A stretch of DNA of 64,000 nucleotides from a bacterium (GTDB lineage: Bacteria > AUK180), in assembly GCA_023144005.1 (NCBI GenBank), contig JAGLGN010000017.1, forward strand, positions 1 through 64,000, in the 5' to 3' direction. The notes beneath the pieces were generated by a model. It was not told where the DNA came from. It did not search any database and worked only from the letters and a program-made list of their open reading frames with translations. Below are positions 22,255-49,631 of the stretch, piece after piece. Numbering within the stretch: the first letter of the stretch is position 1; each line of letters starts with the position of its first letter. The position numbers were made by a program, and so were the translations under genes.

Positions 22255-25200
22255 TTAACCGTCCAGAACATCACGAATAAGATAGAGAAACATTTCGAGG
22301 TTAAAAGGTTTTTGAATAAAATTGACATTCTCTTCAATAATTCCCTGCTTTGTTATAATGTCTTCGGTAAAACCGGACATGAATAGTACTTTAATATCCG
22401 GCCGCTTTTTTTTGATATATTCAGATATTTGTTTCCCGTTGAGACGATTAGGGAGAACCATGTCAGAAACAAGCAAATGTATATCGTCTTCATATTTCTT
22501 CTCTTGCATTTTTGCTTTCTCTCCATCTGATGCTTCGAGAACCGTATAACCATGTGATACAAGCGCCCTTGCTATTGCGCGTCTCAACATCTTCTCATCT
22601 TCAACTAAGAGGATTGTTTCTTCCCCGTCAAGGGTTTTTCCGCTATTTTTCTCTATGTTTAAATCAACCGGGAAGGCATCGCTTTGCGGAATGAAAATAT
22701 TGAATGTCGTTCCGACTTCAAGTTCGCTGTGGACAAATATCTCTCCTTTATTCTGCTTAACTATTCCATAAACCGTAGGCAATCCCAAACCTGTCCCTAT
22801 TTCCCCTTTTGTGGTAAAGAACGGATCAAATATCTTCTCCAGAATTTCATCACTGATCCCCTTCCCCGTGTCGCTTATCAGGAGATGAACATACTTTCCG
22901 GGGCTAAGATAATAATCTTTGGCGGCATCGTCCACACCGACTTCAATGTTTGAAGTCTCGATCGACAATTTGCCTCCGGCCGGCATTGCTTCCAAAGCAT
23001 TCGAAACAAGGTTCAAGAGGATCTGTTTGACCTGAGTCGGATCCATTTTTACTGCATTAAGCGCCTCTTCAAGATGTATCTCAAGGGAGATCTGCTCGCC
23101 GATGATTCGGGAGAGCATCTCTTTCATCCCAGAAACGATTGAGTTTAAATTGAGAGACCGGGGCTGAATGATCTGTTTGCGGCTGAATGCCATCAGTTGC
23201 GATGTCAACCCCCGCGCATGATCGATACCCATTCTTATTTCATCCAGATATTCATGTATCTTACTACTCTCAGATGGCTCCAGCGCACAAAGATCTCTAA
23301 ATATAAGTATAGAATTCAGGAGATTGTTGAAATCATGAACGATCCCTCCGACAAAGGTTCCGAGGGCATCCATTTTCTGCGATTGCAGGAATTGTTCCTG
23401 AAGCTTTCTTTGGGTTGTAATATCCTGAAATATGCAGAAAATATTGTCTTCCTTCGGTAAATGCTGAAGTACGGATGCTATAGCGTAAATGTTGTCATTC
23501 CCGTCAGTTCCCTCAAATGCAACACTGTCCGGATTTCCTTTACTCAGCGGACAGAATTCACAAGGCTCATCTATTCGGAAAAAATGAGAATAACACTTTT
23601 TCCCGATTGAAGGGAATCTTTCCTGAAGAAATTGGCTTTGAAATGTTATTTTATAGTTCTCATCAATAATGGCGATCCCGATCCCGGCAGAGTTTAAACT
23701 GCTGACAATATTCAGGCGGACCTGATATTCCTGAATGGCTTTCTCCTGTATTTTCTGTATTTCAGTAACATCTTTTCCTGAGCATAGAAGACTGGAATAA
23801 TTTCCCGAATTGTCTTCTATCAGCATATCCTGCCATTGGACGGCCCTGATATTGCCCTTCGCGGTAACAATTTCGTTTTCATATACCTCATTTCTATCTT
23901 TCTTTTTGTCAAAAGAATGCTTGAAAACGGCCTTGATCGAATCCTTGATATCTTTCGGAATAAAATTATCGAACCAGTTCTTCCCCAGCAGATCTTCCCT
24001 TTTTGCTTCCAGAACCTGGCATGCTGTGTCGTTGATCATGACAATTCGAGCATCCGGATCGAGTACCAGTAACATGACCTGAGCCATATTGAAATATTTT
24101 TCACTTCTCTCCTTTTCATTTCTCAAATCGCTTTGCCGCTTGATATCTTCGGAAATATCATCTACCAACGAAGCGGTTCCTGTAACATTTCCCTTTTCAT
24201 CGGTCAAGACAACATTATACCATTCACATGTGATGCGCTCTTTGTTTTTGGTAATATTAACGTTTCTGGACCGGTCGCCTCCAGTTTGAGATAATAATCT
24301 CTTGTTAATATCTTCGATCGTATCGCGGAGCTCTTCAGGAACAATGAGTTCATCTGTAAAGCATCCCAGCGCTTCGCTACGGGAAAATCCAAATATTGAT
24401 TCCGCGGCTTGATTCCATCCTGTAATTCTTTGATCAAGGGCAAATGTGATCGCGGCGAGAGGATTATTATGTAAATGACTTTTAAGCTGCTGCATAACTC
24501 TGTGCAATTCAATTTCTGCCATTTTACGATCTGTGATATCCTGAAGAGTCCCGTAAACGTTAACAATATCTCCCTTCTCATTACAATTTAGCTTTGTTTG
24601 GGCATGTATATACTTGATATCACCGTTTCTCATCACAAGACGGTATTCAAGCTCTCCGGAAGTCCTTTCTCTTCTTGATCTTTCCCGAAGTTCTAAAAGC
24701 GCGTCCTTGTCATCCGGATGGATGAATGTTAAGATCGGGTCATCGGTTTCAAGATCGATATCCTCGGGTTTGACTCCGTAGATATTGTACATTTCATTGG
24801 ACCAGGTAACTGCTGTCGAAGCTGCCGACCAGGTCCAGCTGCCGATGCGGGCGACCTTTTCGGCTTCATTCAATAGTAACCTATTTTTTTCGAGAGATTC
24901 TTCGATCTGCTTCAATACTGTTATATCCTGAATGGTTCCCGTCGATTTGAGCGCTTCTCCGTTTTCATTACATTCGATGCTACCGATCTCGTTGACAAAT
25001 TTGATCGAACCGTCCTTCAGGAGCAAACGGTAAATGATCTCATACATTTCTCCGGTTTCGATAGCTTTCTCCAAGGTCTCCTCAACGAAGCTCCGGTCCT
25101 GTGGGTGGATACTTAAGAGAAAGGTTTCGTGAACATCCTCAATTTCGTCAGGTTTGACCTCAAAGATCGCGTAAACCTCATCCGACCAGAACATTTTCCC

Positions 25201-26448
25201 CGAGGAGTGGTCAAAGGTTAATTGTCCCAGTCTGGCAATTCTTTGAGATTCTCTTAAACTATTTTCACTGTTTCGCAATTTCTCTTCTGCTATAAAGGCT
25301 TCGGTTACATCAATATCAACCCCTCTGTAGCCGAGAAATTTCCCGCCTTTGTCGAAAAATGGACTCCCATTCGTTTTCAGATAAACAATATCGCCGTTCT
25401 TGTGTAAATAACGTGTTGAAAAAGAAATGATATCTTCTCTGCTCTTGAATTTCTCCCGGAAAAATGCGACATATTCTTCTTTTACTTCAGGATGAAAGAA
25501 ATCATAAAAGTGCTTTTTACCGATGATATCCTCCGGAAGATAACCGAGGATTTGAAAAACGGTTTCATTTGAATACACATACAGCCCTTCTGGATCAGTT
25601 TCCCAAATCCATTCCTCGGCTCTCTCGGCAATCTGATGAAACCTCAGGCTGCTTTCCAACAATTGCTGCATCAATGTTTTTTGGAAAGTAACATCTATGA
25701 AGGTTTCAATAACCGATGTAGGGCGGCCGTCATTCCAACTCACCGCGGCAACAGTTATTAAATACCATTTTTGCTCTTTTTCAAAATACCTCTCCGCGGT
25801 GTAACTGTTTGGATTATCGGGATTTCTCTGGATTTCCGAACAACAAGAGGTTTTCAATTCATCAAAGGGCAGATCATCAAGTATTTGATCAGCGAGCGTT
25901 CCTTCCCTGTTTTCAAAGAATATCCGCCAGTGATCGCTTGTTCCAAGCATTTCCTCGGCGGACAACCCGGTCAACAAGACACACGCGCTATTCCAATGTG
26001 TGATACGGTGGTCTTCGTTGAGGATGAATACCGCCACAGGCATTCCTTCCAATATCTCCTTCTGATACCTTGCCAGTTCTTCCAGTTTTTGATTAATAAG
26101 CTTATTATCCCTATTAGCCTTCACAAGTTTGTCGGAGTACCTTCTTGATTTTCGCAATATCACATTCATCACGATTGTCAATACGAGCAGAGCAAGATAT
26201 CTTTCGTAATCCAATAGATGCAATCCTTGCCTGAAAACGAAAACATGACTGATGCTGTTCAGCGCCACTATATACGTTAATACATAGAAGGATTTTTGTC
26301 CATACCACAAGGCGCAGAGAACAAGAACAAAATAGTAGAAATTACTGATGAGTTCGTGGCTGTGACCCCGATAGTGAAGTATTATTGTAAGAACGGTGAT
26401 ACATACAAGTGATATCAGTATAATATTAAATCTGCTTTTGCTATTCAT
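22255..26448 (-). CDS. Multi-PAS hybrid histidine kinase
   Basis: A 1397-residue membrane sensor kinase. The first about 115 residues hold several hydrophobic segments. Seven PAS/PAC domains follow from about residue 130 to 1020, many ending in the typical DIT motif. The kinase core has the H-box [10 protein letters not shown], an N-box in [36 protein letters not shown] and the [11 protein letters not shown] motif. A C-terminal receiver ([20 protein letters not shown], phospho-Asp in LLVSDMVLP, Lys in FIQKPF) makes it hybrid. The seventh PAS has a cysteine cluster, [20 protein letters not shown]. It follows the sigma-54 regulator gene by 47 bases in the same direction, so the two are a likely pair. 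What it senses is unknown. Confidence 0.92.
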
Positions 26449-26495: not shown

Positions 26496-27890
26496 CTATT
26501 TCTTGTACCGGTTCGGATTTATTTCCAAAGCGTTGAGTTTATTGTAAAAGGTTTTACGATTGATCTGAGATCTTTTCGCGGCTTGAGATACATTCCCCTC
26601 ACATTTAATCAGCATATCGATAAGGAAGCTCCTTTCAAATTTATTTATTGTGTCCTGACGCCTCAGATGAAAGTTTTCGGATTCCTCCTTTGAGGGAAAG
26701 CGGTCATCTTTCACGATCTCAATAGGTAATTCGTCCACAGTGATCTCACCTGATACATTGAGAAGCACGAGAGTTTCTAAAGCGCCCTTTAATTGCCTTA
26801 CATTTCCGGGCCATGAGTATTTCATCAATCTATCCTCAGCTTTTTTTGAAAAGAATACCTTTTTTTCAAATTTGTTATTGTAAAAGGAGAGAAAGTATGC
26901 CAGTAATTCAGAAATATCTTCCCGACGGTCTTTGATGGGCGGAATTAAAATTTGAATAATCTTTAATCTATAATACAGATCCTCTTTAAACTTCTCATTT
27001 TTGATCAATGTTTCAATACATTTATTTGAAGATGATATTATCCTGACATCACTATGAATGATCTTACTTCCGCCGACACGGAGAAATTCGCCGCGGTCCA
27101 GAAATCTCAAAAGACTATTTTGAAAAGTCATTGATGCGCTATTTATCTCATCAAGATATATCGTTCCGCCTTTTGCGATCTCAAATATTCCGTACTTCCT
27201 TTTGTCTGCACCCGTGAAAGCCCCCTTTTCATAGCCGAAGAGTTCCGCGTTCAAGAGGTTTTCAGAAAACGCGGCGCAATTCAAGGGAATGAACGGCTTG
27301 TCTGATCGAATGCTTCTTTGATGAAGAAGTCTCGCAACAACTTCTTTGCCTGTCCCGGTTTCACCCTCGATCAATACAGGAGTATTGAAACCCCGCACCT
27401 TGTTTATAATGCTTTTTATATCACGGATCTCTTTAGAATTTCCAAGTAACTCCAGCACAGGTTCTCTTTTGCGCAAATATTGTATCTGACGTGTCAATTG
27501 CTGCTTATTCTGCAAGCGCTTTACACGAAAGACAAGATCATCAGAGTTGAACGGCTTGGGGATATAATCATAAAACCCCATACTTAGGGCCTTAATGCCC
27601 TTTTCGATATCTCCGTGGCCGGTAATTAAAATGAACTCCGAATTTCCGCATGTCTTCGAGCTCATTATTTCATTGTACAGATCGAAACCGTTCGAATCGG
27701 GCAGGGAGTAGTCCAGGATAACAATATTGTAATCATTGTCATCGATCATTTTACGGGCTGCCTGCGCGCAGTGGGCCAGATGGCATTCTAAGCCCAGAAG
27801 CTTCTGCAGCAGCAGAGCAAGAGCATCGCATAATTTCCTGTCATCATCAACGATCAGAACCTCGATAGAGTTATTCCGCTTTGTTATCAT
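26496..27890 (-). CDS. Sigma-54-dependent response regulator (NtrC family)
   Basis: A 464-residue activator with a receiver domain (VLIVDDDRKLCDALALLLQK, phospho-Asp in IVILDYSLP, Lys in YIPKPF), a central AAA+ domain with Walker A EGETGTGKEVV, the sigma-54-contacting GAFTGA loop in EKGAFTGADKR, Walker B GGTIYLDEI, and a C-terminal Fis-type helix-turn-helix (EGNVSQAAKRSQINRKTFYN). It needs sigma-54 RNA polymerase. Transcribed first in an operon with the hybrid kinase, and divergent from the chemosensory operon with 166 bases between the start codons, so it may regulate that operon, its own, or both. Confidence 0.93.
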   Translation of the reverse strand: MITKRNNSIEVLIVDDDRKLCDALALLLQKLLGLECHLAHCAQAARKMIDDNDYNIVILDYSLPDSNGFDLYNEIMSSKTCGNSEFILITGHGDIEKGIKALSMGFYDYIPKPFNSDDLVFRVKRLQNKQQLTRQIQYLRKREPVLELLGNSKEIRDIKSIINKVRGFNTPVLIEGETGTGKEVVARLLHQRSIRSDKPFIPLNCAAFSENLLNAELFGYEKGAFTGADKRKYGIFEIAKGGTIYLDEINSASMTFQNSLLRFLDRGEFLRVGGSKIIHSDVRIISSSNKCIETLIKNEKFKEDLYYRLKIIQILIPPIKDRREDISELLAYFLSFYNNKFEKKVFFSKKAEDRLMKYSWPGNVRQLKGALETLVLLNVSGEITVDELPIEIVKDDRFPSKEESENFHLRRQDTINKFERSFLIDMLIKCEGNVSQAAKRSQINRKTFYNKLNALEINPNRYKK

Positions 27891-28056
27891 AAAGTGATTT
27901 TACAATTTTTGGGCTACATTTTCAACTGTGCAATTTACCCGTCATTTGTATAATCCCTTACACACACCAGTATGGGCAGTGGCGGCGATTTCGCCCTTGA
28001 TATGTAGATTTACAACTTGGCATAGATATTGGAAAGAGCTATTCACAGGAGGCCAT

Positions 28057-28566
28057 ATGAGCGATATTGACAATTTCCTTGGAAGTGCGGCTAACGATAG
28101 TGTTCAAATAGTCAGCTTCAATGTAGATGAAGAGGAATACGGGATTCCCATTGAAGATATTCAAAGGGTGATCAGGTTGCCGGAGATAACACGTCTTCCA
28201 CAGACACCGGATTTTATTAAAGGCGTCATTAATCTGGAGGGTGAGGTGGTTCCCATCATAGATATGCATGAGAGATTCGGGCTCGAAAAACGGGAATACG
28301 GGACTTCCACCAGAGTCATCATAGTCAAATTAATGGAGAAAGACGTAGGAATGATAGTGGACAGTGTATCTCAGGTGCGCGTTGTAATGAACAAAGAGAT
28401 CGAAAAGGTCACCGAAGTAATCAGCGGTATCTCAAAAGAGTATATCGCGGGGATCGCCAAGATAAGTGACTCGATGGTCATTCTTCTGAAGATAGAGAAA
28501 ATCCTTACTTCAAAAGAATTTACCGTGGTATCAAAGGCCGGCAAAGGCAAAAAAACTAAGAAATAG
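28057..28566 (+). CDS. cheW: CheW adaptor
   Basis: Links the chemoreceptor to the CheA kinase. The CheW fold is recognised from [40 protein letters not shown] and [17 protein letters not shown]. The start is the ATG at 28057 with AGGAGG four bases before; an open frame extends upstream but has no CheW sequence. The encoded protein is 169 residues with a lysine-rich tail. It is the first gene of a nine-gene chemosensory operon and is nine bases from the receptor gene. Confidence 0.93.
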
Positions 28567-28574: not shown

Positions 28575-30827
28575 ATGAAAAAAAGAAGAAAAAAAGGAAG
28601 AATCACAGAGAGAAGCTTTTTCAGCAATCTCGCGGATATGGCTTTCATGGTTGACAAGGATCTGATCGTTCAAAAAGTGAACGCGTCGCTTTTACAGGAT
28701 ATGGGCTACTCCCGTGAAGAGGTTGTTGGCCAGATGACATGCGGTCAACTCTGCAAAACACCTTTGTGCGGAACTGAGAACTGCACAATAAAGAGAGCCT
28801 GGAGGGAAAAGACAACGGTTGTCGGTTCCACCGTAGCTGAAACAAAATATGGCAAGAAGATTCCGATCAGGGCAAGCTGCGGAATTCTCACTGACGATAA
28901 AGGCAATATTACCGGCGGTTTTGAAATCATCTCAAAAATACCGGAACTTGATGAAGGATTCCTTTCAAATATGGCTGACGCTGCGTTCAGGGTTGATAAG
29001 AACCTCATGGTTCAGCATATTAATGATACTGCCTTGAAACTGCTCGGTTATCAAAAGGCTGAGGTTATCGGGCAAATGACATGTGCGGAACTTTGTAAGA
29101 CCCCTTTATGCGGAACGACGAACTGTACAGTGAAAAATGCAATGTCTGACAGGAGCACCGTTATCGGAACAACCGTGGCCAAAAGTAAAAGCGGGCAGCT
29201 TCTCCCTGTCCGTGCCAGTTGCGGATTTACGGCAGATACCGACGGAAACATCACCGGCGGTTTTGAAGTTCTTTCTCTTGTCAAAGAGATTGACGAGGGC
29301 TTTCTTTCCAATATGGCCGATGCGGCTTTCAGAACCGATAAAAATCTGATCATTCAGAATATTAACGATGCAGCCCTCTCCCAACTCGGATATTCAAGGG
29401 AAGAGGTCGTTGGAAAGCTTTCCTGTGCGGTCTTGTGCAAAACCCCGTATTGCGGAACAGATCAATGCACCATAAAGCGATGCATGAACTCAAAAACAAC
29501 GATCGTCGCTGAAACAGAAGCTCAAAATAAGTCTGGAGCAAAAATACCGATCCGGGCAAGTTGCGGAGTCCTGACAGATGTCTACGGAAATCCTACAGGC
29601 GGATTCGAAATACTTACCGATAACAGTAACCTCGTAGAAATGATCGAGAATGTCAGTAAGCTCGCGATGGACGGAAATCTTTCCGTTAAGGTGAGTGATG
29701 AGATCACGGCCAGAAACGATACGATCGGAAAACTTGGCAAATCCATGAATGAAATGGTGAAGAGCTTGAATGATACCGCAAAAGCCGCCGGCCGGATTGC
29801 AGCCAAAGACCTTACGGTAGCTATCACTCCGAGATCCAAAGATGATAAATTGAATTTAGCGTTCAAGAAAATGGTTGAAGACCTTAGAAATATGATCAAA
29901 GAGGTTATGGAAGCGTCAGATCAGGTGGCCGCTTCAGCCGAAGAGCTTTCAAATACTTCCCAAAATCTTTCCGACGGTTCACAGAAACAGGCAGCCGCCC
30001 TCGAACAGGCATCTTCTTCCATGGAAGAAATGACTACTTCGGTAGAGCAGGTGTCTGATAAGGCGCAGAATCAAGCTTCATCAGTGGAAGAAGTGTCATC
30101 TTCGATAAATGACCTGAACAAATTAATAAAAGATGTCGCGGAAGGAGCTGATAAAGTTAAAACGAATTCCGGAGGCTCGGTTACTCAAGCGGTTGAGGCG
30201 GCAGAAGCTTCGGTAAAGGCAAATGAGGGAATGAAAAAGATCGAAGAAAGTTCCAATAATATAAAGAATATCATCAATGTGATCAACGATATCGCGGATC
30301 AGACCAACCTTCTGGCTTTGAACGCTTCCATTGAAGCAGCCCGTGCCGGAGACGCAGGCCGGGGATTTGCGGTTGTCGCAAAAGAGATCTCAAAACTGGC
30401 CGAGAAAAGTTCGGAAGCAACAAAAGAGATTGCAATGCTGATCAATGAGACCGGCGCGAATGTCGTTGTAGGTTCGGAAATGGTGCTGAAAGTTGATGAA
30501 TCCATTTCTAAAATGAAGGAACTGGCTGAATCGGTCTCCGGTTCTGGACAGACCATGTCGGATTCAGCCAAGGAGCAATTGGAAGGTTTCTCTCAAATCG
30601 CAATTGCAGTCGAGAATATTAACGATATGGCTCAGGGAATCGCGTCATCCGCCGAGGAACAAAGCAGTACATCTGAAGAAATGTCCAAAACGATCGAAGG
30701 TGTAAACGATATCACTCAGCAAGCCGCTTCCAGCTCGGAAGAGATGGCATCTTCTACAGAAGAACTGTCAACTCAGGCGGAGAGCTTGAAGAAATTGGTA
30801 GCTCAATTCAAACTCGATGATAAATAA
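28575..30827 (+). CDS. Soluble chemoreceptor with three cysteine-rich PAS domains
   Basis: A methyl-accepting chemotaxis protein of 750 residues with no membrane segment, so it should sense inside the cell. The N-terminal third is three tandem PAS domains of about 113 residues (about 12-125, 126-240, 241-350). Each has the same cysteine pattern, C-x3-C-x4-C-x4-C in TCxxLCKTPxCGTxxCT, plus a fifth cysteine in RASCG. A HAMP-like linker (about 355-440) precedes the signalling coiled coil, whose tip has [18 protein letters not shown]. Glu/Gln-rich helices around [19 protein letters not shown] are likely methylation or deamidation sites for CheR, CheB and CheD. There is no CheR-binding pentapeptide at the C-terminus. 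The cysteines suggest metal, heme or redox sensing, which is inference. Confidence 0.92.
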
Positions 30828-30878: not shown

Positions 30879-31709
30879 ATGATAGAACCCGAAGACACAA
30901 TGACTGATTCCAATTTTCGTCTGTTCAGCAAACTGATTTATCGTGAAACAGGGATCTTCATGGATGTGAAAAAAAAGGCACTATTAATTAATCGTCTTAA
31001 AAAGCGCTTGAAATATATGAATATCCCTTCCTTCTATAAATATTACAGATATGTGAAGAAATCAGGGGATAAGGACGAACTGGCGAGATTCATTGATGAA
31101 GTAACGACAAATGTTACAAGCTTCTTCCGAGATCCCAAGCAATTTGAACGGGTCAAGAAATTGATATTCACCAAAATTATCCCGACGCGGCGGAAGAAAA
31201 CTCTCGATATTCTCAGTGCCGGTTGTTCGACAGGACAAGAGCCCTATTCTATTGCGCTTCTGGCAAGAGAAGAGCTTCTTCCCAGGCTTCCGGATTGGCG
31301 AATATCCGTTTCAGGTGTTGATATTTGTGAAAGCGCGATTGTAACCGCAAATAATGGAGAGTATGAAAAGGATGACATCGAATCACTTCCTAAGAAATAC
31401 TTGCTCAAGTATTTTACACAGAATCAGGATAAATACACTATTTCCAATGACATCAAGGAGATGGTCGAGTTGAATCGGCGAAACCTTATCACGCAAACAA
31501 TAGTGGGCAAATATGATATTATCTATTGCCGGAATGTGGTAATTTATTTCGACAAACACAGTAAAAATATCGTATATAATAAATTTCATCATGCCCTTAA
31601 GAAGGACGGCTATCTTATCGTCGGGCATTCCGAAGGATTGATGGGCGATCCGCGTTTTAAATTTCACACTCCGGGAATCTACAGGAAGGTACTTAATGAA
31701 GGAGATTAA
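30879..31709 (+). CDS. cheR: CheR chemoreceptor methyltransferase
   Basis: Methylates receptor glutamates using S-adenosylmethionine. The N-terminal helical part (FSKLIYRETGIFMDVKKKAL) precedes the conserved TTNVTSFFRDPKQF segment, the SAM site SAGCSTGQEPYSIA, and the later YCRNVVIYFD motif. With 276 residues it is standard length. Start is the ATG at 30879; an ATG seven codons later is also possible. It overlaps cheA by 14 bases. Confidence 0.93.
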   Translation: MIEPEDTMTDSNFRLFSKLIYRETGIFMDVKKKALLINRLKKRLKYMNIPSFYKYYRYVKKSGDKDELARFIDEVTTNVTSFFRDPKQFERVKKLIFTKIIPTRRKKTLDILSAGCSTGQEPYSIALLAREELLPRLPDWRISVSGVDICESAIVTANNGEYEKDDIESLPKKYLLKYFTQNQDKYTISNDIKEMVELNRRNLITQTIVGKYDIIYCRNVVIYFDKHSKNIVYNKFHHALKKDGYLIVGHSEGLMGDPRFKFHTPGIYRKVLNEGD

Positions 31710-34482
31710 TTTCAAAGAATTCCAAACATATTTCCGTGAGGAATTAAAGGAATTTGTGGTAACTCTGAACAAAAATCTGGTAAAATATGAGAAAGAGCCC
31801 GAAAACCAGAGACTCATTCAAAAGATCTTCCGTATATTCCACACGATCAAAAGTTCTGCGGCTTCCGTAGGGTTTTTCAACCTGAGCACTCTCGCGCACA
31901 AAGCCGAAGACATTCTGCACCTTCTCAGGGCGGGGGAAATAGTGATCTCGGGAGAGATCATTTCACTTCTCTTGTCAGTGGTCGATCGATTTCAGGATCT
32001 CGCCGGTGAAACGGCGATTTCTTCAGAAGACATTGAACAACTGATCAAGGATCTCGAAAATTACTCCAAGGAAACAACAACTCCTGCAAATACCGCTGTG
32101 ACAACTGACAAGGCGCCTGCTATCTCTGAATTCATCACACATCTATCAGAATATGAAAGATCGATCGTCGATGATCATGCCAAGGGTCACAAATATCATT
32201 ATTGCCTGACAGTAACCGTATTCAATGATGAGGAACTTAAGGGTTTAAGAGCAGAACTTGTGTTCACAACGCTTGAGAAAGAATGTATATTGGTAAAGAC
32301 ATTTCCTGAAAGAGATGGGATTTCAACTTCTTCCGGTACTCATAATTTTTACGCACTGCTGCTTTCCAATCTTTCAGATTCGGAATTAGAGTCAATAATT
32401 TCTATTGATGGAATAGAGAAGGTCGAATTCGAAGAATTGAATTTCAACAAAGGCGCATTTCAATTAAAAGATGAGGGTGGCGAAAAGCATTCGGAAGGAA
32501 CTCAGAATTACGGAAATAACCTCGTTACAAACTCTTCTGAAGCTGAAAATTCGAATATCATCCAGACTTCGAACACCATAAGAGTTTCAATTGATAAACT
32601 TGACAAATTATTCAATCTTGTCGGAGAACTCATCATTGCATCGACCGGTTTCAATGAATTGGAAATGAATTTGAGAGCCAAATCAGAGTATAAACAGATC
32701 AGAGAGGATTTTTCATTTGTTTCAAATAAAGTTATGGATATTTCATCTAAGCTTCAATATAACATTATGCGAACCAGAATGCTTCCGATCTCAATTTTAT
32801 TTAATCAATTCCCCCGAGTAGTAAGAGACCTCAGTCAAGAACATGGGAAAGATATTGAACTTGAACTTATCGGGACTGAAACCGAACTGGACAAGAAGGT
32901 CATTGATGAGATTGGCGATGCACTCTTACATATTCTGAGAAATGCGATCGATCATGGAATTGAATCTCCAGAACAGCGATTAAAAAACGGAAAAGAGCGC
33001 ACGGGAAATATAACGATTGAAGCGATCCAGGTCGGTAATCATATAGTAATCTCTATCCGTGATGATGGTAGCGGCATTGATCTCGAAGAGGTCCGCAAGA
33101 AGGCCGTCGGTATGGGTTACTTCCCAAAGACATCTCCTGAAAAGATTACCGAAAAGGAACTTCTGAAAATTATATTTGAACCGGGATTCAGCACTTCTTC
33201 AAAGATAACAACAATATCGGGCAGAGGCGTTGGGTTGGACGCCGTGAGAAGCGTAGTAGCTACTCTTGGCGGGTCGGTCACCATTCACAATCAACCCTCA
33301 GCCGGCTGCGAGTTCAAGATCGTCCTTCCGCTTACGGTTGCAACAACAACTGTGATTTTTGTCAGGGCAGGAGATTATACCTGCGGCATTCCGGTTGGGT
33401 ATGTTGATCAGATCGTAAAATTCGATGTTAAGAAACTTAGGACTTTCCAGGGGAATTGGCTGGCGGAACTGAATGGCAAACCTGTTCCTTTGACATTTCT
33501 GGAAAGTATTCTGGATACTCATTCCCACAAGCAAATTTCAGAGAAGGAGATCAAAGTAGTGGTCGCGAAATTCAACAATGAACGCTTAGGTTTCATCGTT
33601 GATGATGTGATCGGTGATCAAGAGATCGTTGTTAAGCCGCTGGAAAAGAATTTCCGGGCGATCAAAGGACTGTCTGGGGCAGCTATTCTTGGCAACGGCA
33701 AAATTATCTTTATCTTGGATATCCTTGAAATATTCAATTTACACAAAAACACATTGAATCTGGCCGCAAATGAATATAAGAAGCAATTAGAAACGGAAAT
33801 GACATTGGAGGACGAAGCGATGGATGAAAATAGTAGCATTACAGAAGAAAATGCTCATTCGGATGAGAAAAAAGCATTAACGACATTCACAACAGACGAC
33901 ATTTCGGATATCAATAGATGTCTGAATAAATTCTATAGCGAAGCAAGTGATTCCCTTTCTGGTCTATTAAACCGGAAAGTTACCATCGGAAGCAACAGCG
34001 ATCCGATTTTCATAAACGGCCTGGAATTGATCAATCAGATGCTTGTGAATTTCGAGGACCTTTACTTCGCTTCAATACTTAAAATGTCAAAAAGCATTAA
34101 TATTAATACCATTCTGCTTCTAAATGAGGAGTCCGGCAGAAAGCTCTTCGAGATATTCATGACCAGCTATCAAGAATCGCCCGACCCGGAAAATGCCGAC
34201 ATTATTGAAGGCCTGGGTGAAATCAATAATATACTCGGGAGTATTTTCATCAACAATCTGGCAAATTATCTTAAAGTTGAAATTCATCCTTCCCCACCAA
34301 TCAATGTCTTTGATATGCTTGGGGCCATTGTTCAAGGAGTAGTATCACAGGACGAATTTTTGGACAAAACGATTCTTTATTCTGATACCGAATTCCATAT
34401 TGATTCAGAAAATTCACTTCATGCGCAATTAATGACAGTTCTCGATTCAAAGGAACTAGCCACTCTGAAGGGGACGCTATGA
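31696..34482 (+). CDS. cheA: CheA histidine kinase fused to a CheC-like phosphatase domain
   Basis: Receives signals from the receptor and phosphorylates CheY and CheB. The 928 residues contain an HPt domain with phospho-His49 (FHTIKSSAASVG), a small P2-like domain (about 150-255), the dimerisation region (RVSIDKLDKLFNLVGELIIA), an ATPase domain with ILRNAIDHGIE, DDGSGID and SGRGVGLDAV, and a CheW-like domain (about 540-680). Beyond the normal end there is an acidic linker and then about 195 residues with a CheC/FliY-type motif: E842 and N845 in EGLGEINNILGS with a proline 23 residues later, matching E-x2-N-x22-P. The earlier equivalent position (DINRCL) is degenerate, so one active site remains. 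The stop overlaps the next gene by four bases. Confidence 0.93.
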   Translation: MKEINFKEFQTYFREELKEFVVTLNKNLVKYEKEPENQRLIQKIFRIFHTIKSSAASVGFFNLSTLAHKAEDILHLLRAGEIVISGEIISLLLSVVDRFQDLAGETAISSEDIEQLIKDLENYSKETTTPANTAVTTDKAPAISEFITHLSEYERSIVDDHAKGHKYHYCLTVTVFNDEELKGLRAELVFTTLEKECILVKTFPERDGISTSSGTHNFYALLLSNLSDSELESIISIDGIEKVEFEELNFNKGAFQLKDEGGEKHSEGTQNYGNNLVTNSSEAENSNIIQTSNTIRVSIDKLDKLFNLVGELIIASTGFNELEMNLRAKSEYKQIREDFSFVSNKVMDISSKLQYNIMRTRMLPISILFNQFPRVVRDLSQEHGKDIELELIGTETELDKKVIDEIGDALLHILRNAIDHGIESPEQRLKNGKERTGNITIEAIQVGNHIVISIRDDGSGIDLEEVRKKAVGMGYFPKTSPEKITEKELLKIIFEPGFSTSSKITTISGRGVGLDAVRSVVATLGGSVTIHNQPSAGCEFKIVLPLTVATTTVIFVRAGDYTCGIPVGYVDQIVKFDVKKLRTFQGNWLAELNGKPVPLTFLESILDTHSHKQISEKEIKVVVAKFNNERLGFIVDDVIGDQEIVVKPLEKNFRAIKGLSGAAILGNGKIIFILDILEIFNLHKNTLNLAANEYKKQLETEMTLEDEAMDENSSITEENAHSDEKKALTTFTTDDISDINRCLNKFYSEASDSLSGLLNRKVTIGSNSDPIFINGLELINQMLVNFEDLYFASILKMSKSININTILLLNEESGRKLFEIFMTSYQESPDPENADIIEGLGEINNILGSIFINNLANYLKVEIHPSPPINVFDMLGAIVQGVVSQDEFLDKTILYSDTEFHIDSENSLHAQLMTVLDSKELATLKGTL

Positions 34483-34964
34483 GCGCTGCAAGGGCAAAGA
34501 ATTACATCAATGTTTCGGAGATAAGAATATCACAGGATGATTTAACTCTGGAAACCGTTTTAGGGTCTTCGATTGCAGTATGCTTGTGGGATGGAAAGAG
34601 TTTGACCGGTGGGATAATTCATATATTACTGCCAAAAGGCCCCGAAGGGAAAGTTAAAGAACAAGGGAAATATGCGGATACGGGTTTACCTTGCCTGGTA
34701 AGTAAAATGATCGAATCCGGATGTGATCATAAGGTTTTGGTCGCCAAGATACTTGGAGGGTCTTCTGCATTCAGTGATGACTGGGATAATTCCCTGGGTG
34801 CCAGAAATTATCACACCACGAAAAAGACTTTGGAGCAAATGAAAATTCCGATAGTTTTTGAAGATATTGGAGGAAAGACCGGAAGACACATTTTCTTCTC
34901 CACGATAAATGGCGAGGTTGAGGTGGTTTGCTTGTCAAAACGGAGGACAAATTGCAACGCGTAG
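34479..34964 (+). CDS. cheD: CheD-like protein lacking the catalytic cysteine
   Basis: CheD proteins deamidate receptor glutamines and bind CheC. This 161-residue protein has the fold, with LETVLGSSIAVCLWDG, the conserved His in GGIIHILLP and Thr in YADTGLP, then KILGGSSAF and FEDIGGKTGRHIFF. The catalytic cysteine, which should follow LGS, is replaced by Ser (LGSS); the Cys four residues later is not in the usual position. It is therefore probably inactive as a deamidase but may still bind a CheC domain. It starts inside the end of the CheA-CheC gene (ATGA overlap), which fits a binding partner role. The second CheD at 37.4 kb has the intact triad. Confidence 0.85.
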   Translation: MSAARAKNYINVSEIRISQDDLTLETVLGSSIAVCLWDGKSLTGGIIHILLPKGPEGKVKEQGKYADTGLPCLVSKMIESGCDHKVLVAKILGGSSAFSDDWDNSLGARNYHTTKKTLEQMKIPIVFEDIGGKTGRHIFFSTINGEVEVVCLSKRRTNCNA

Positions 34965-36043
34965 AAGGTAAGATCAATGTTTTGATAGTTGACGACTCTC
35001 CCATGATGAGAAAAATGTTGAAGGAAATACTTTTGACCGACAAGAAAATCCATGTAATGGGAAGTGCTCCGAATGGAAAAATCGCTCTGGCAAAACTTGC
35101 ACTGCATACGCCGGATGTTATTACGTTAGACCTTGAAATGCCCCATGTTGACGGATTGACCACATTAAAGGAGATCATGTCCAACAATCCTATCCCTGTT
35201 CTGATTGTGAGTTCTCACACTACACACGGAGCGAAAAAAACTCTTCTGGCATTATCATACGGAGCCGTGGATTTTGTGACCAAACCCGATGCCAAGTTAA
35301 GCAGGACCGTAATGGATGTTGCAGATGAAATAGTGATGAAGATCAAAGCAGTAAATAAAGCTAAGATCAAGCGCCTGGATATAAAGAAAGTTACGGATTT
35401 TCACTCAATTGAACAGCAAGCGGTAAGTCCTCAGAAGCGAAAAGCAATTCTTGATAAAAATATTTCGGTGATCGCGATCGGGATCTCAACAGGTGGTCCG
35501 GAAGCTCTTGCAGCGATATTACCGACGATTCCCCCGGATATTAAGGCAGGAATTCTCATTGTTCAGCATATGCCGATCGGTTTTACCAAGGTATTTGCGG
35601 AAAGGATGAACAAGATATCTGAAATTGAAGTTCTTGAAGCTGCCAATGGCACCATTATAGCTCCAGGAAGAGTAATAATTGCAAAAGGCGGATTTCATAT
35701 GGTAGTCAAGGAGCAGAAATTCGCTCATATAATAAGATTGAATCAGAATGCACGGGTTTCCCTGTTCCGTCCATCAATTGATGTAATGATGGAATCAGTT
35801 GCAGAAAATTTCGGAAACAATTCAATCGGTGTGATTATGACCGGAATGGGATATGACGGATGTGAAGGAATTGCTAAAATACAATCTGCGGGAGGTTTTT
35901 CTATCGCTCAAGATAAGTCATCTTCAGTAGTATTCGGAATGAACAAGACTGCGATCGCGAAAGGATATATTGAGAAAGTTGTTCCTCTAAAGAGGGTTGT
36001 ACCGCTTATTTTAGAACGATTAGAAGTTATGGAGGTAGCATGA
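34952..36043 (+). CDS. cheB: CheB methylesterase/deamidase
   Basis: Removes receptor methyl groups when phosphorylated. A receiver domain (VLIVDDSPMMRKMLKEILL, phospho-Asp in VITLDLEMP, Lys in FVTKPD) is joined to the esterase with Ser in GISTGGPEAL, His in IVQHMPIGFT and Asp in MTGMGYDG. I place the start at a TTG at 34952, five bases after GGAGG, giving 363 residues; a TTG at 34928 lacks a ribosome site and would add eight residues. It overlaps cheD by 13 bases and cheY by four. Confidence 0.93.
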   Translation: MQRVEGKINVLIVDDSPMMRKMLKEILLTDKKIHVMGSAPNGKIALAKLALHTPDVITLDLEMPHVDGLTTLKEIMSNNPIPVLIVSSHTTHGAKKTLLALSYGAVDFVTKPDAKLSRTVMDVADEIVMKIKAVNKAKIKRLDIKKVTDFHSIEQQAVSPQKRKAILDKNISVIAIGISTGGPEALAAILPTIPPDIKAGILIVQHMPIGFTKVFAERMNKISEIEVLEAANGTIIAPGRVIIAKGGFHMVVKEQKFAHIIRLNQNARVSLFRPSIDVMMESVAENFGNNSIGVIMTGMGYDGCEGIAKIQSAGGFSIAQDKSSSVVFGMNKTAIAKGYIEKVVPLKRVVPLILERLEVMEVA

Positions 36044-36405
36044 AAACTCTTTTAATAGTTGATGATGCAAAATTGATGAGAATGATGATAAGAAAGTCCA
36101 TAAGTGAGGAAAGCTTCAATATTATCGAAGCAGCTAACGGGAAAGAAGCTCTGGCACTCTATAAGGAACACTCCCCTGATGTGGTTACTATGGATATTAC
36201 GATGAAGATCATGAATGGTTTCGAAGCTACGAAACATATACTGGCATATAACAATGAGGCCAAGATCATAATAATTACTGCACTTGGGCAGGAAGTTCTT
36301 CTACAGAAATGTATTAAAGAGGGAATTTCGGATTTCTTGCTCAAGCCATTCTCCAAAGAACGGCTGGTGAAAGTAATTGAAAAACATATGAATGAAAAAA
36401 ACTGA
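36040..36405 (+). CDS. cheY: CheY response regulator
   Basis: Single receiver domain of 121 residues with the acidic pair in LLIVDDAKLM, phospho-Asp in VVTMDITMKIMNG, Thr in IIITALG and Lys in FLLKPF. It would be phosphorylated by CheA and dephosphorylated by the CheC-like domain. No flagellar gene is in the window, so the output could be flagella or another system. It overlaps cheB by four bases and the HD-GYP gene by 14. Confidence 0.92.
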   Translation: MKTLLIVDDAKLMRMMIRKSISEESFNIIEAANGKEALALYKEHSPDVVTMDITMKIMNGFEATKHILAYNNEAKIIIITALGQEVLLQKCIKEGISDFLLKPFSKERLVKVIEKHMNEKN

Positions 36406-37384
36406 ATATAGAACCCTTGTACTCGTCCCTGATGTTGAGCAGGATAAGGTTTTAAGCAATCTGTACGGAGTGGATTTTAATATCACTCTGAGGACGGACT
36501 TTGAGCAGGACATGAATACTAAATACGACATTCTCCTTACAAACACACCAGAATCCCACGAAGGAAAGCATGATTTTTTGGAAGAGCAGGCTATGATCAT
36601 TTATTACTCGATTGAGGATCTTCCTTTCATCACTTCCACTCATTTTTTACATGACAAGTCGTACACAAAGGTTTTCAGGGTCGAGCTGCTGGAAAGATTT
36701 ATCACTAATTTTTTTAACAATGTCCTCATCCCTCAAATTGACAACATCCCATTTGAAACCTATCATGCCAGGGGGCGAGTACTCTCTTTTCTATACAACA
36801 TAGTAAATTCCTTCTCGAATATGATCGAAGCGAAAAGCTATTACACATGGGTTCATAGCAAGCGGGTTGGTCGTATCTCGTATAAAATCGGAGTGGAGCT
36901 CGGATTGCCGGAGGAGAAGCTTGAAGAACTTATTATAGGGGCATTGATACATGACCTCGGAAAGGTTGCGATTTCTGAAAAAATATTGATTAAGCCGGAT
37001 AATCTGGATATGCAGGAATTTAACCAGATTAAGGAACACCCTCTGATCGGTTATTACATGGTCAACAGCTTCAAATGTTTGACGGAGTTGACCCCGTATA
37101 TACTATATCATCACGAGAGATATGATGGATGCGGTTATCCTTTTGGGTTGAAAGGCACTCGTATACCTTTTGAAAGCCGTATTACTTCTATAGCAGATGC
37201 GATAGAATCCATGGTCAGTTCTCGACCATATCGTAGTGGAATGTCTCTTCAGAAAATTAAGAATGAATTGGAGAACAATTCCGGGACACAATTCGATCCG
37301 GACATTGTCAAGAGTACCCTTTCGTTGATAAAGGAAAATGTTTTTGATGATGTGTTTTTACAAAACCTAAATTATCACTTTTGA
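36392..37384 (+). CDS. HD-GYP domain protein, predicted cyclic di-GMP phosphodiesterase
   Basis: A 330-residue protein. Residues about 1-110 look like a receiver fold that has lost its acidic pocket (TLVLVPDVEQDKVLSNLYGV, no DD pair or phospho-Asp). The C-terminal HD-GYP domain is complete: GALIHDLGKVAI, KEHPLIGYYM, HHERYDGCGYP and IADAIESMVSSRPYR. It should cleave cyclic di-GMP. Being inside the chemosensory operon between cheY and the second cheD, it suggests that this pathway and cyclic di-GMP are linked. It starts with an ATG overlapping cheY and is followed 12 bases later by cheD. Confidence 0.88.
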   Translation: MKKTEYRTLVLVPDVEQDKVLSNLYGVDFNITLRTDFEQDMNTKYDILLTNTPESHEGKHDFLEEQAMIIYYSIEDLPFITSTHFLHDKSYTKVFRVELLERFITNFFNNVLIPQIDNIPFETYHARGRVLSFLYNIVNSFSNMIEAKSYYTWVHSKRVGRISYKIGVELGLPEEKLEELIIGALIHDLGKVAISEKILIKPDNLDMQEFNQIKEHPLIGYYMVNSFKCLTELTPYILYHHERYDGCGYPFGLKGTRIPFESRITSIADAIESMVSSRPYRSGMSLQKIKNELENNSGTQFDPDIVKSTLSLIKENVFDDVFLQNLNYHF

Positions 37385-37396: not shown

Positions 37397-37867
37397 ATGG
37401 TAGTCGATACAAATCTATTTGTCAAGGCAGGAGAACTTAAAACGGCACAAGCGCCGTCAGTGCTAAAATCTGTCTTAGGTTCATGTGTGGGTCTCACAAT
37501 TTGGGATCCGGTTAAAAAAATCGCGGGATTAGCACATATTTTCATGCCCAAAAGTGATGGAAAAATAGTTTCTGATAATCTACGAGCCAAATTTGCTGAT
37601 ACAGCCGTTCACGAATTGGTCAATGAGATTTTGGCAGCGGGAAGTCGGAAATATAATCTTGAAGCGAAGTTGATAGGCGGGTGCAATATGCTTGGAAAAG
37701 ATGGTGCTTTGTCAGTAGGGAAACGAAACGCGATGATGGTTAAAGAGAAATTACGGGAACTCCATATCCATCTTATATACGAAGATGTAGGAGGCAAGTA
37801 CGGGAGATATATCGCCCTTGATTGTGAGTCCGGTGAACTTACAGTGAAAACGCTCGGACAAGAATAG
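37397..37867 (+). CDS. cheD: CheD receptor glutamine deamidase
   Basis: A 156-residue CheD with the full catalytic set: Cys in VLGSCVGLTIWD, His in GLAHIFMP and Thr in FADTAV. It should deamidate glutamines on the receptor and may be regulated by binding CheC-type proteins, here the C-terminal domain of CheA. It closes the operon. The first CheD at 34.5 kb is a diverged paralogue without the cysteine, and the two are not close in sequence. Confidence 0.92.
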   Translation: MVVDTNLFVKAGELKTAQAPSVLKSVLGSCVGLTIWDPVKKIAGLAHIFMPKSDGKIVSDNLRAKFADTAVHELVNEILAAGSRKYNLEAKLIGGCNMLGKDGALSVGKRNAMMVKEKLRELHIHLIYEDVGGKYGRYIALDCESGELTVKTLGQE

Positions 37868-39497: not shown

Positions 39498-41441
39498 TTA
39501 TTTTGTTTTAAATTCATATATACCTTTCCAATGATTAACATCAAAAAGACCGGCATCCTTTTGCCTAATTATATTCTCACAGCGGTCTATATAAAAGTGA
39601 AGTGGTGGATCAGCACAAATATCTTCTAAATATCCATGCTCTCCTATTTCTTTCCTCATTTCTTCATAAATCCTTAAAGCAGCACCAAACGCACCTTTTT
39701 GATAATTCTCAAAGGCTTCTTTAAACTTTTCTAAATGTTTATATTTCTTTTCTTTTATTTTATCAGGCTCAAAATCAAATACCTCATATATTTTTATAGG
39801 TTTCTTTTTTCCCTTTACTAACACATTATCCAAAAATCTAGTATCGAATCCTTCATCAAGTTGTGCTTTGACATTTTCACAGATTATAATTCCTACCCCA
39901 TAATATCTGGTTAAACCTTCCAATCTGGCTGTCAGATTAACCACATCTCCAATTAATGTATAATCCAGCTTATCTGTTGATCCTATATTTCCTATTACAC
40001 ATGGGCCATGAGCAATTCCAACACCATTACTTACTTCAAAGTAATCAACGCTTTGATCTGTCACTCCATTTTTCTGATATTCTTTTTTTCTTTCCCTGTT
40101 ATAAATTTTCAGCTGTCTTTTTATATCTATTGCTGTACGGACAGCATTATCAACTGACTTTGAAGGATTTAATTCATCATAAAAAAAGGCCATTATGCAA
40201 TCCCCCATTAACTTATCGATTTCTCCATTCCATTTTTTTATTGGTGCATTCATCTTATCGAAATAACTATTAAGAAATCTCACCAGTTTATCCGAATCCA
40301 TTATTTCTGAAATATTTGTCATATCCTTAATATCCGAAAACAATATTGTCGTATCTAATCTTTTTGATTTCTCCATTCTTGGATCCTGACCATTATCTAC
40401 TCGCTCAACAAGTGATTTCTGAGTATAGGACTGGAATATTTCAGATTTTCTTTTTGATTCTGTATATGCTATTTGCAGATTATCTTTTGCTTTTTCCAAC
40501 TCAAAATAGAGCTTTCTTTGAATTGCCAATTCATCTTCCAAAGCTTCCAAATTTGATTTATCTCCGGCGATTAACCTTTTCACTTGATTGATAATACTCC
40601 TTATTACTGATTTATTTTCTCTCCATGATAATTTCTTAATGAAATATGGTGCGTTATATATCTGACCTTTTCTAAGAATATTTTGATTATCCAATACAAG
40701 TTCTTTGGTTATTAAAATTCCCTTAACTTCCTCGGCTCCATATATTCCCTCATTATCTAATTCACAATATTTCCCCTGATAAATCATTTTCCCGTCAATT
40801 ATTTCTTTTTCTAGTAAAACTTCTTGCCCGTATATTTGTCCGTCGATATAAAATTTATTTTGTTTGTTCTCTGTTTCCAAGTTATATTTCGAATATTTCT
40901 TATCCAGCAACTCTTTCAAATCATATTCTATAAGCGTTGTCTCTATTCTTCCTTCAGGTAAATTCCATATTAAAGGGATGCCTGCCAATATTCCATCAAT
41001 AAATAACTCGCCATCAGCATCTTCCGTTGGATTCACATCATCTTTAAATCTAATTTTTATTATACAGCTGCTTTTTGTAAGCCCAAAAACCTCCCAATCG
41101 TTAGTGTCGTTAAACTGCGGATTATACTTAGCAGCTTTTTTAAGAATTGCTCCGGGGGAGGTTACCATAGATACAATATTTTTGAATATCCCCAAGGATT
41201 CTAAACTTCCTGAAGATAATCCACATTTATATAGGGCATCAGGATCATTTAATATTTCTTTAGTTTTTTTAGTTAATGTGACCCAAGTTCTAAGTGAAAT
41301 CCAATTATGTGTATTGGTAAGAAAAGACTCCGAATATTCCAAACCATTTAATAGCTCATCGATATTTTTGTTTTGTGCTTTGAGATATTTGATAAGAATG
41401 TTAGTGCATTTACAATTTACGTTCTTTTTTTCTGTTTGCAT
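39498..41441 (-). CDS. Class III adenylate/guanylate cyclase
   Basis: Soluble protein of 647 residues expected to make cAMP or cGMP. The catalytic domain (about 365-560) has the first metal-binding aspartate in TTILFSDIKDMT, the second in DKLMGDCIMAFF, and the transition-state region in DYTLIGDVVNLTARLEG. A coiled coil from about 290 precedes it. The N-terminal about 280 residues look like a sensory domain (NTHNWISLRTWVTLTKKTKE) that I cannot name with certainty, and the C-terminal tail is helical (EKKYKHLEKFKEAFENYQKG). It is the first member, from the left, of the co-oriented accessory array. Base composition is A+T-rich compared with the operon at 1-18 kb. Confidence 0.85.
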   Translation of the reverse strand: MQTEKKNVNCKCTNILIKYLKAQNKNIDELLNGLEYSESFLTNTHNWISLRTWVTLTKKTKEILNDPDALYKCGLSSGSLESLGIFKNIVSMVTSPGAILKKAAKYNPQFNDTNDWEVFGLTKSSCIIKIRFKDDVNPTEDADGELFIDGILAGIPLIWNLPEGRIETTLIEYDLKELLDKKYSKYNLETENKQNKFYIDGQIYGQEVLLEKEIIDGKMIYQGKYCELDNEGIYGAEEVKGILITKELVLDNQNILRKGQIYNAPYFIKKLSWRENKSVIRSIINQVKRLIAGDKSNLEALEDELAIQRKLYFELEKAKDNLQIAYTESKRKSEIFQSYTQKSLVERVDNGQDPRMEKSKRLDTTILFSDIKDMTNISEIMDSDKLVRFLNSYFDKMNAPIKKWNGEIDKLMGDCIMAFFYDELNPSKSVDNAVRTAIDIKRQLKIYNRERKKEYQKNGVTDQSVDYFEVSNGVGIAHGPCVIGNIGSTDKLDYTLIGDVVNLTARLEGLTRYYGVGIIICENVKAQLDEGFDTRFLDNVLVKGKKKPIKIYEVFDFEPDKIKEKKYKHLEKFKEAFENYQKGAFGAALRIYEEMRKEIGEHGYLEDICADPPLHFYIDRCENIIRQKDAGLFDVNHWKGIYEFKTK

Positions 41442-48308: not shown

Positions 48309-48385
48309 TTACTCCCTCCACACCTCATTAATTCGATTTTTGATTTTTGTTCAAGATTATTGCATAACATCGTAACAGCTTTCAT
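48305..48385 (-). CDS. Element-encoded short ORF, copy 4
   Basis: 26 codons beginning MKAVTMLCNNLEQK. Compared with other copies it has lost one base after CAAAAA and is frameshifted downstream, ending in an ATGA overlap with the KAP NTPase gene. It may be a leader peptide that couples translation, or just residual sequence. Confidence 0.3.
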   Translation of the reverse strand: MKAVTMLCNNLEQKSKIELMRCGGSK

Positions 48386-48459
48386 TCCTGTTCTATTGTA
48401 TAGTTATTTCAGAATTTCTACAAATTCTGTATAGTTTATTTCCATTCTTTCACAAAATC
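48306..48459. repeat. Array element, right-half copy
   Basis: Right half of the element (hairpin CAGAATTT-GTAG-AAATTCTG on the minus strand, promoter, short ORF), directly before the KAP NTPase gene. The left half is absent; the neighbouring sequence reads differently (ctgggattgctgattttgtg). Confidence 0.75.
48395..48423 (-). promoter_or_regulatory. Array-element promoter, copy 4
   Basis: TTGTAG (48418-48423), 17-base spacer, TACAAT (48395-48400), ahead of the short ORF and the KAP NTPase gene. Confidence 0.5.
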
Positions 48460-48563
48460 AGCAATCCCAGACAATTTTCTGTTCCGCAAAATATTCTCAA
48501 ATTCTAAATTTCGACAAACGCAAATATAGTGTCTGTACTTTATTGATTTTATTAGATCATATT

Positions 48564-49511
48564 TCAGAATAGATTACCTATTATAATAGGAAGGATAATG
48601 GAAGCTGGAATAAATATTAGTACTATGTTTATCCATACTTTATAGAATTTCGCAATCCTCTCTTTTTTCCCTAATCCTATCGTAGTTCTTGGCTTTATAC
48701 TCAATAATATGACAATAAAGATAAGTATTAACGATACTTTGACAAAAGTTTTGTCTATTTTCACTTCTGGCTTGAACGATTTGGGAACATGACCTGACTC
48801 AAGTTCTAAAATTACTTCAAGGGCCTCACAAACTTCAGTGTTGCTAATCCCGTTATTTAATAGGGCTTCCGACTTTTTTAAAAGCTCTGCTTTGTATAAA
48901 CTTCGATCTGGCATTATCACACTAGAAATTGAAATAAGGAGAAGGATAATAAATACGCTTGATACAAATCCTAAATCAAAGGAACTCCATATTTGATGCA
49001 CTCGTTTAGGTTTATATTGTTTTATCCACTTCTTTAATGCATAATTGATATCATCTGCAATATTTTCATTATCCATTTTCAGATTTACTTCTAGGACACC
49101 ATCATATTGAGAAGAGATGTTAAGGGAAAATTCAAATGGACCACGAATAATCTCAATTTGTAATTTAGTTGGTGAAAAATCATTTAAATACTTATCCTTT
49201 AGCAGGCTTAATAAAGATTCGTCTGTAATTTTTTTTCCATCTTGTGATCCCAATACTACAGATTTACTTGCTTTGTTTAAAGGATAGCTTCCTTTTATTT
49301 CTTCTCTAATCTCATCTAAACTAAGCTCGTTATTTTCTTTCCCGCTTTCAAGCATTACTTCTGAAGCCTTTTGATTAACTAACTCCTCATAAGCATCATA
49401 TATTTTCCCTTCAATTTTTACCAATACTTCATTAAGTTCTTCCAATTCCTTATCTTGTACAAGCCATGGTCCCTTTATTTCATATTTACTAGGTGCAATT
49501 AATTTTGCCAT
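48564..49511 (-). CDS. Membrane protein of unknown function in the accessory array
   Basis: 315 residues: a soluble N-terminal part of about 175 residues (with helical ELEELNEVLVKIEGKIYDAY and a beta-rich FEFSLNISSQYDGVLEVNL), a membrane segment (SSVFIILLLISISSVIM), then two more near the C-terminus (LILIFIVILLSIK and IVLIFIPASIILPIIIGNLF). It starts with an ATG after GGAGGAAAATCT. Next to the KAP-like NTPase it may form part of the same membrane unit; this rests only on position. Confidence 0.65.
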   Translation of the reverse strand: MAKLIAPSKYEIKGPWLVQDKELEELNEVLVKIEGKIYDAYEELVNQKASEVMLESGKENNELSLDEIREEIKGSYPLNKASKSVVLGSQDGKKITDESLLSLLKDKYLNDFSPTKLQIEIIRGPFEFSLNISSQYDGVLEVNLKMDNENIADDINYALKKWIKQYKPKRVHQIWSSFDLGFVSSVFIILLLISISSVIMPDRSLYKAELLKKSEALLNNGISNTEVCEALEVILELESGHVPKSFKPEVKIDKTFVKVSLILIFIVILLSIKPRTTIGLGKKERIAKFYKVWINIVLIFIPASIILPIIIGNLF

Positions 49512-49544
49512 AGATTTTCCTCCAGGATGTTATACCCACTCATA

Positions 49545-49628
49545 TCATTTCCCCCACACCTCATCAATTCGATCTTTTATTTTTTGTTTAAGATTATTGC
49601 ATAAGATCATAACACACCTCAGCCTCAA
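49545..49628 (-). CDS. Element-encoded short ORF, copy 5
   Basis: 27 codons from a TTG, ending CNNLKQKIKDRIDEVWGK. The equivalent of the usual ATG start is changed, so translation is less certain than in other copies. Confidence 0.25.
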   Translation of the reverse strand: MRLRCVMILCNNLKQKIKDRIDEVWGK

Positions 49629-49631
49629 TTC

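Follow-up and report, generated by a model that had tools for sequence, protein, structure and literature searches.

A CheA kinase fused to a C-terminal CheC domain, beside an altered CheD pair, in a bacterium of the AUK180 lineage

The window analyzed here, the whole of a 64,000-nucleotide stretch of contig JAGLGN010000017.1, contains a chemotaxis operon in which one gene encodes both a CheA kinase and a CheC-type domain. We found the following genes at this locus.

Positions 27928 to 28566, + strand: cheW (Pfam CheW 1.7e-39), with its true start probably further in.
Positions 28575 to 30827, + strand: soluble chemoreceptor with three PAS domains, then an MCP signaling domain (Pfam).
Positions 30879 to 31709, + strand: cheR (Pfam CheR 1.1e-57).
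Positions 31696 to 34482, + strand: cheA-cheC fusion gene, one open frame of 928 amino acids with P1 to P5 all over the Pfam cut-offs.
Positions 34479 to 34964, + strand: cheD1 (Pfam CheD 1e-23), which overlaps the stop codon of the fusion gene (ATGA, 4-nt overlap).
Positions 34928 to 36043, + strand: cheB (Pfam CheB_methylest 3.9e-60, plus a receiver).
Positions 36040 to 36405, + strand: cheY, a single receiver domain (Pfam Response_reg 1.3e-29) with the active-site Asp, Thr, and Lys motifs.
Positions 36392 to 37384, + strand: HD-GYP-like protein of the same operon, a possible output (Pfam HD_5 1.7e-28).
Positions 37397 to 37867, + strand: cheD2, of the same operon (Pfam CheD 6.6e-28), with its catalytic Cys30 kept in the alignment.

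We detected no transmembrane stretch in the chemoreceptor at 28575 to 30827 (maximum 19-residue hydropathy of 1.09), and each of its PAS domains has a C-x3-C-x4-C-x4-C motif (residues 56, 170, and 284); these three Cys-rich PAS domains are possibly a metal or redox sensor. Searches of this genome, which is 96% complete and in which the search controls were positive, found neither FliG nor FliM/FliN domains. Thus, with no flagellar switch proteins found, a soluble receptor, and an HD-GYP-like gene in the operon, the output of the pathway is probably not the flagellar motor; c-di-GMP or pili are our guesses at alternative outputs. Just upstream of the che operon lie a divergent multi-PAS hybrid histidine kinase and a sigma-54 activator (22255 to 26448 and 26496 to 27890, - strand), and just past it is a gene for a 647-amino-acid protein with an adenylate/guanylate cyclase catalytic domain (39498 to 41441, - strand). 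A low-GC arm of the window (46038 to 57835) carries defense-like genes: a D12 methyltransferase that matches PD-Lambda-5_B (2e-99), an AAA ATPase, a KAP NTPase, and a Schlafen-group-3 helicase with an S24-peptidase-like end.

The product of the fusion gene is laid out as a complete CheA (P1 to P5), followed by a 54-residue acidic linker and a full CheC domain (approximately residues 736 to 928), with the following parts.

Positions 31726 to 31995, + strand: P1/Hpt, residues 11 to 100 (Pfam PF01627 7e-13), with the phosphorylatable His49 placed by its motif (HTIK).
Positions 32200 to 32436, + strand: P2, response-regulator binding, residues 169 to 247 (Pfam PF07194 3.5e-9).
Positions 32569 to 33336, + strand: P3 dimerization and P4 kinase, residues 292 to 547 (Pfam PF02895, PF02518).
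Positions 33352 to 33738, + strand: P5, CheW-like, residues 553 to 681 (Pfam PF01584 1.2e-20).
Positions 33739 to 33900, + strand: acidic linker, residues 682 to 735 (Asp or Glu at 14 of the 46 residues from 690 to 735).
Positions 33807 to 33822, + strand: candidate internal start, with GGAGG (33807 to 33811), 8 nt, and an in-frame ATG (33820 to 33822, Met709).
Positions 33901 to 34479, + strand: CheC domain, residues 736 to 928 (NCBIfam NF041093, Pfam PF04509, and Foldseek match to 1xkr).
Positions 33916 to 33927, + strand: site 1, degenerate in alignments, with R741 for the catalytic Glu and N744 kept.
Positions 34219 to 34299, + strand: site 2, with E842, N845, and P868 kept (E, N, and P in 93 of 93 homologs) and Glu838 where homologs have Ser.
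Positions 34312 to 34314, + strand: Asp873 (Asp in 92 of 93 homologs), aligned with the CheD-contact residue Asp149 of Bacillus subtilis CheC.

The fusion protein has P1, P3, P4, and P5 of CheA, as well as the phosphorylatable His and the ATP-site motifs; Pfam places H-kinase_dim of P3 at residues 292 to 359 and HATPase_c of P4 at residues 408 to 547, and P4 contains ILRNAIDHG, DDGSGID, and GRGVGLD. With both His49 and these motifs present, the kinase part looks active, and to judge from its sequence it is apparently an ordinary CheA. A survey of CheA lengths, as proposed in a first-pass annotation made from the DNA letters, revealed that 81 of 84 aligned homologs end at residues 680 to 682 of this protein, whereas the fusion protein runs on for a further 247 residues (682 to 928), comprising about 54 of linker and about 193 of CheC domain. 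The annotation had the open frame, its length, and the residue numbers right; its figure of about 195 residues after the CheW-like domain fits the CheC domain alone but not the whole extension, and it placed the feature at 33830 to 34482, while the domain proper occupies 33901 to 34479. We have very little doubt that the frame from 31696 to 34482 is a CheA-CheC fusion.

That a CheC-type domain is joined to the kinase, as first proposed, is borne out by profiles, by the sequences of solved structures, and by the predicted fold. In the profile search, the tail matched the NCBIfam CheC model at 2.7e-19 over 175 residues (tail residues 21 to 195), although its score did not reach the strict 250-bit equivalog cut-off of this model; it matched Pfam CheC at 24.3 bits (cut-off of 22) when used alone, and the full-length protein scored slightly under that cut-off, at 19.5 bits. 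Moreover, a phmmer search of the PDB with the tail sequence matched the CheC chains 2F9Z and 1XKR (4e-4). The match of the tail to CheC is far above chance. Structure prediction, also called for by the annotation, gave an AlphaFold model with a CheC fold (mean pLDDT of 83.4; input alignment with 22 CheC relatives), for which the best Foldseek match was Thermotoga maritima CheC (1XKR, 4.4e-15, TM 0.82), then 2F9Z (1.4e-14), followed by FliY and FliM, and CheX structures lower still. Since the rows of the input alignment were CheCs, the fold result depends in part on the sequence result. Both the CheC-family profile and the fold extend across the whole domain, which is 17% to 24% identical to other CheCs. 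We rejected CheX as its identity (CheX profile of 18.2 bits compared to a cut-off of 27; TM of 0.50 to 0.56 for CheX compared to 0.82 for CheC), as well as FliY, because Pfam found no FliMN_C domain in the protein or the genome and the fold is closer to CheC.

One of the two active sites of this domain is degenerate. In site 1, which the first-pass annotation had described in these terms, an ungapped alignment puts Arg741 in place of Glu with Asn744 retained, and the E-x2-N of the CheC family is thereby broken. In site 2, the reported E842-x2-N845-x22-P868 spacing is confirmed exactly, and all 93 CheC homologs have the same three residues at these positions. The CheC family motif calls for D/S four residues before the catalytic Glu; this -4 position of site 2 is Ser in all 93 homologs and Glu838 here, outside the motif. 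The CheC/CheX/FliY class needs both an acidic residue, which forms a salt bridge to the CheY Lys, and an Asn that orients water (PMC3035606); thus, site 1 is expected to be inactive, and site 2 may be functional. It is plausible from these residues that the domain is a working CheY-P phosphatase by way of its intact site 2, and the operon CheY would be its likely substrate. Asp873 lies in FDMLGAI, and its equivalence to D149 of B. subtilis CheC was placed by this motif, not by aligning the B. subtilis sequence. The D149K mutant of B. subtilis CheC loses CheD binding and chemotaxis but retains phosphatase activity, and the enzymatic activity of that CheC is considered minor, with CheD binding being what matters (PMC3513319).

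The CheD encoded immediately after the fusion is itself altered. In CheD1, Ser31 (codon TCG, 34569 to 34571) stands in place of the catalytic Cys; the 90 CheDs used for comparison, each taken from a locus with CheC, all have Cys here. Thus, CheD1 lacks the Cys of an active deamidase, with the His retained. Since TCG is at least two base changes from any Cys codon, Ser31 is not one misread base. The CheC-contact pair, which we aligned in both CheDs to B. subtilis Met101-Phe102 and which is Met-Phe in 89 of 90 CheDs, is Ala97-Phe98 in CheD1 and Met98-Leu99 in CheD2. In B. subtilis CheD, changes of Met101 abolish deamidase activity, Phe102 is needed for CheC binding such that F102E loses CheC binding but keeps deamidation, and the Met-Phe pair is found only in species with CheC (PMC3513319). 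Because B. subtilis CheD-F102A still binds CheC fairly well, CheD2 may be able to bind it despite the Leu. The simplest reading, drawn from few residues, is a split in roles in which CheD1 would be the partner of CheC and CheD2 would carry out deamidation.

In the mechanism that we favor, to which we give an even chance, CheC is tethered to the array, where it docks CheD1 and uses site 2 to act on CheY-P. The acidic, flexible linker would hold the CheC domain behind the array-binding P5, beside the receptors; CheY-P would bind the domain at its single intact site, site 2, and would probably be hydrolyzed there; and CheD1 would dock on the domain, with CheD captured or released near the receptors according to kinase output. 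The result would be local feedback and adaptation as with CheC, CheD, and CheY-P in B. subtilis, except that here CheC would act in cis with the kinase. CheD1 would serve as a non-enzymatic partner of CheC, CheD2 would keep the receptor deamidase role, and translation from Met709 may supply some free CheC as well. The docking of CheD1, the phosphatase activity, the role in adaptation, and the internal start are steps that we infer. Counting against this mechanism, the domain could have little or no phosphatase activity, given that site 1 is lost and Ser838 has become Glu. The full combination, in which CheC is tethered, a dead CheD1 acts only as its partner, CheD2 acts only in deamidation, and free CheC comes from the internal start, we put forward tentatively and regard as doubtful.

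The first-pass annotation had gone on to suggest that joining kinase and phosphatase would give a steep local CheY-P gradient. We reject this reading because co-located kinase and phosphatase flatten gradients and because the genome searches turned up no flagellar switch proteins. In models of Escherichia coli chemotaxis, co-localization yields spatially uniform CheY-P, and gradients arise when the two are apart (PMC2673030).

We considered that the domain might mainly hydrolyze CheY-P at the array, making the protein a bifunctional kinase-phosphatase with fast, uniform turnover, like CheZ on CheA-short. Retention of E842, N845, and P868, the presence of a single CheY with active-site Asp and Lys in the operon, and the lack in this genome of a separate CheX gene over the cut-off or of a FliMN/FliY domain all fit this idea, as does the sharper response that co-localization of CheZ gives E. 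coli (PMC2673030). Nevertheless, we consider it rather unlikely: One of the two sites is lost and the other has Glu for an invariant Ser at -4, CheC ranks last in activity among phosphatases of its class, at 6% of the FliY level in B. subtilis (PMC3513319), the genome holds three further CheC genes, and the altered CheD1 is left unexplained.

We think it less likely again that the CheC domain is non-catalytic and only docks or sequesters CheD1 or senses CheY-P. The lost site 1 and the Glu at 838 in site 2, the general divergence of the domain, and a partner CheD1 that is enzymatically dead by sequence would all be expected if this were so; however, the Glu, Asn, and Pro of site 2 are kept in an otherwise strongly diverged domain, which suggests selection on the site.

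The signals at Met709 bear on a further alternative, that free CheC is the main product and the fused form arises incidentally because the cheA stop codon was lost. Met709 is unique among 578 in-frame internal ATGs (in ~105 kb of genome) in having GGAGG 5 to 10 nt upstream; its anti-SD energy of -9.3 kcal/mol ranks within the top 2.1% for internal ATGs and surpasses that of ~85% of 79 ORF starts; and the product predicted from this start is a free 220-amino-acid CheC. Moreover, given where CheA homologs end, the start of a separate cheC would be expected in the region that contains Met709. Thus, this start may be a relic of a former cheC start and could yield free CheC. However, GGAGG can come from the Leu-Glu-Asp codons of the acidic linker, with a chance of about 2% for such a GGAGG-ATG in a gene with 12 internal ATGs, and a start at Met709 would put 27 residues ahead of the domain, more than CheC N-termini usually have; we consider it highly improbable that the free form is the main product. 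Least probable of all is an assembly or base-call error that erased a stop codon separating cheA from cheC, since, even though this is a single metagenome-type assembly (38 contigs), the fusion was seen in no second genome, and cheA and cheC are usually adjacent, the 54 linker codons are open in frame (third-position GC of 0.36 compared to 0.42 in the flanking domains), no start codon is closer to the domain than Met709, and the contig is genuine, belonging to this genome as its urocanase shares 99% identity with that of the sister species.

With respect to the origin of the gene, cheA and cheC are separate and adjacent in relatives from several phyla, commonly in the order cheA-(cheW)-cheC-cheD. 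Thus, the fused domain sits where a cheC gene is expected, and cheD follows it as in the related loci; this fits a fusion by loss of the stop codon between neighboring cheA and cheC genes. All 80 named CheC loci, which came from a search with a 4-row alignment and are mostly from Paenibacillus, were unfused (0 of 80 CheA-CheC fusions), and a contig profile search with the tail alone gave no match. Among the matches listed, a second frame of CheA length that includes a CheC domain was absent from 386 genomes selected around the source genome, and likewise from 103 Thermotogota-like genomes (phylum name inferred), from three genomes of the phylum of G052, and from 400 genomes around a Paenibacillus-like one. 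The source phylum has seven genomes in the comparison set, and six are without the fusion; in these comparisons it was carried by one genome only. Several candidates were rejected as CheA-CheC fusions: G181 has a separate CheC in an overlapping frame, G086 encodes a PAS-GGDEF-EAL-CheC protein, and the frames in G035, G055, G335, G047, and G372 are not CheA.

In a CheA tree, the fusion CheA forms a long branch of uncertain place, apart from the second CheA of the genome (on contig C19). This second CheA has its own separate cheC and follows the phylum in the tree; it is vertically inherited within the phylum. No close relative of the fusion CheA was found in these comparisons, and the sister species is without it. 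One stand-alone CheC of the same genome (L062:7393-8001, contig C3) has no che genes nearby and is flanked by peptidylprolyl isomerase-like and AmmeMemoRadiSam-like genes.

A survey of 13,673 CheAs reported that class F1 CheAs of Leptospirae include CheC/CheX fusions, for which it suggested a dual kinase/phosphatase role (PMC10782961); thus, the architecture and the core idea of the first-pass annotation were already published. The Leptospirae proteins likewise have a C-terminal CheC/CheX-type domain after a complete CheA, but that survey mentions the fusion only in Leptospirae (PMC10782961), whereas the fusion described here is in an apparently non-Spirochaetota phylum. Compared to Leptospirae by description only, the system here also differs in having a CheC-type domain with the CheD-contact Asp, an adjoining pair of altered CheDs, and a genome in which we detected no flagellar switch genes. 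Since seven genomes are too few for Spirochaetota as the source phylum, we infer that this is a second, apparently independent, lineage of CheA-CheC fusions, to be added to those so far noted only in Leptospirae.

The domain shares its fold (TM 0.82), site 2, the CheD-contact Asp, and a cheD neighbor with CheC of T. maritima (1XKR; 2F9Z with CheD) and B. subtilis, but these CheCs are separate proteins with two active sites, whereas the domain here is tethered and has one intact site. E. coli CheZ, which is brought to the array through CheA-short, similarly places a phosphatase at the kinase (PMC2673030), but it has an unrelated fold, is held non-covalently, and works without CheD. Among the long frames with CheC or CheX matches that we checked, only that in G228 encodes a CheA-like kinase with CheX. 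This single 794-amino-acid frame (L182:1524-3905) has Hpt and a CheA-type ATPase and then a CheX-type domain; it differs from the fusion in that no CheW-like P5 was seen by eye, the domain is CheX-type rather than CheC, and the CheA is non-canonical.

The fusion unites on one protein the on-switch of the pathway, CheA, and a feedback part that is normally separate, CheC. From B. subtilis mutants it was argued that CheC and CheD matter for their mutual binding rather than for their enzyme activities (PMC3513319). If our reading is true, a CheC joined to the kinase together with a Cys-less CheD1 that keeps its CheC contact would be independent evolutionary support for this binding role, and CheD1 and CheD2 would be a natural separation-of-function pair for testing it. 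CheC is also linked to c-di-GMP enzymes: In G086 (L065:2242-4518), a CheC-type domain lies behind PAS-GGDEF-EAL, with a second CheC gene overlapping.
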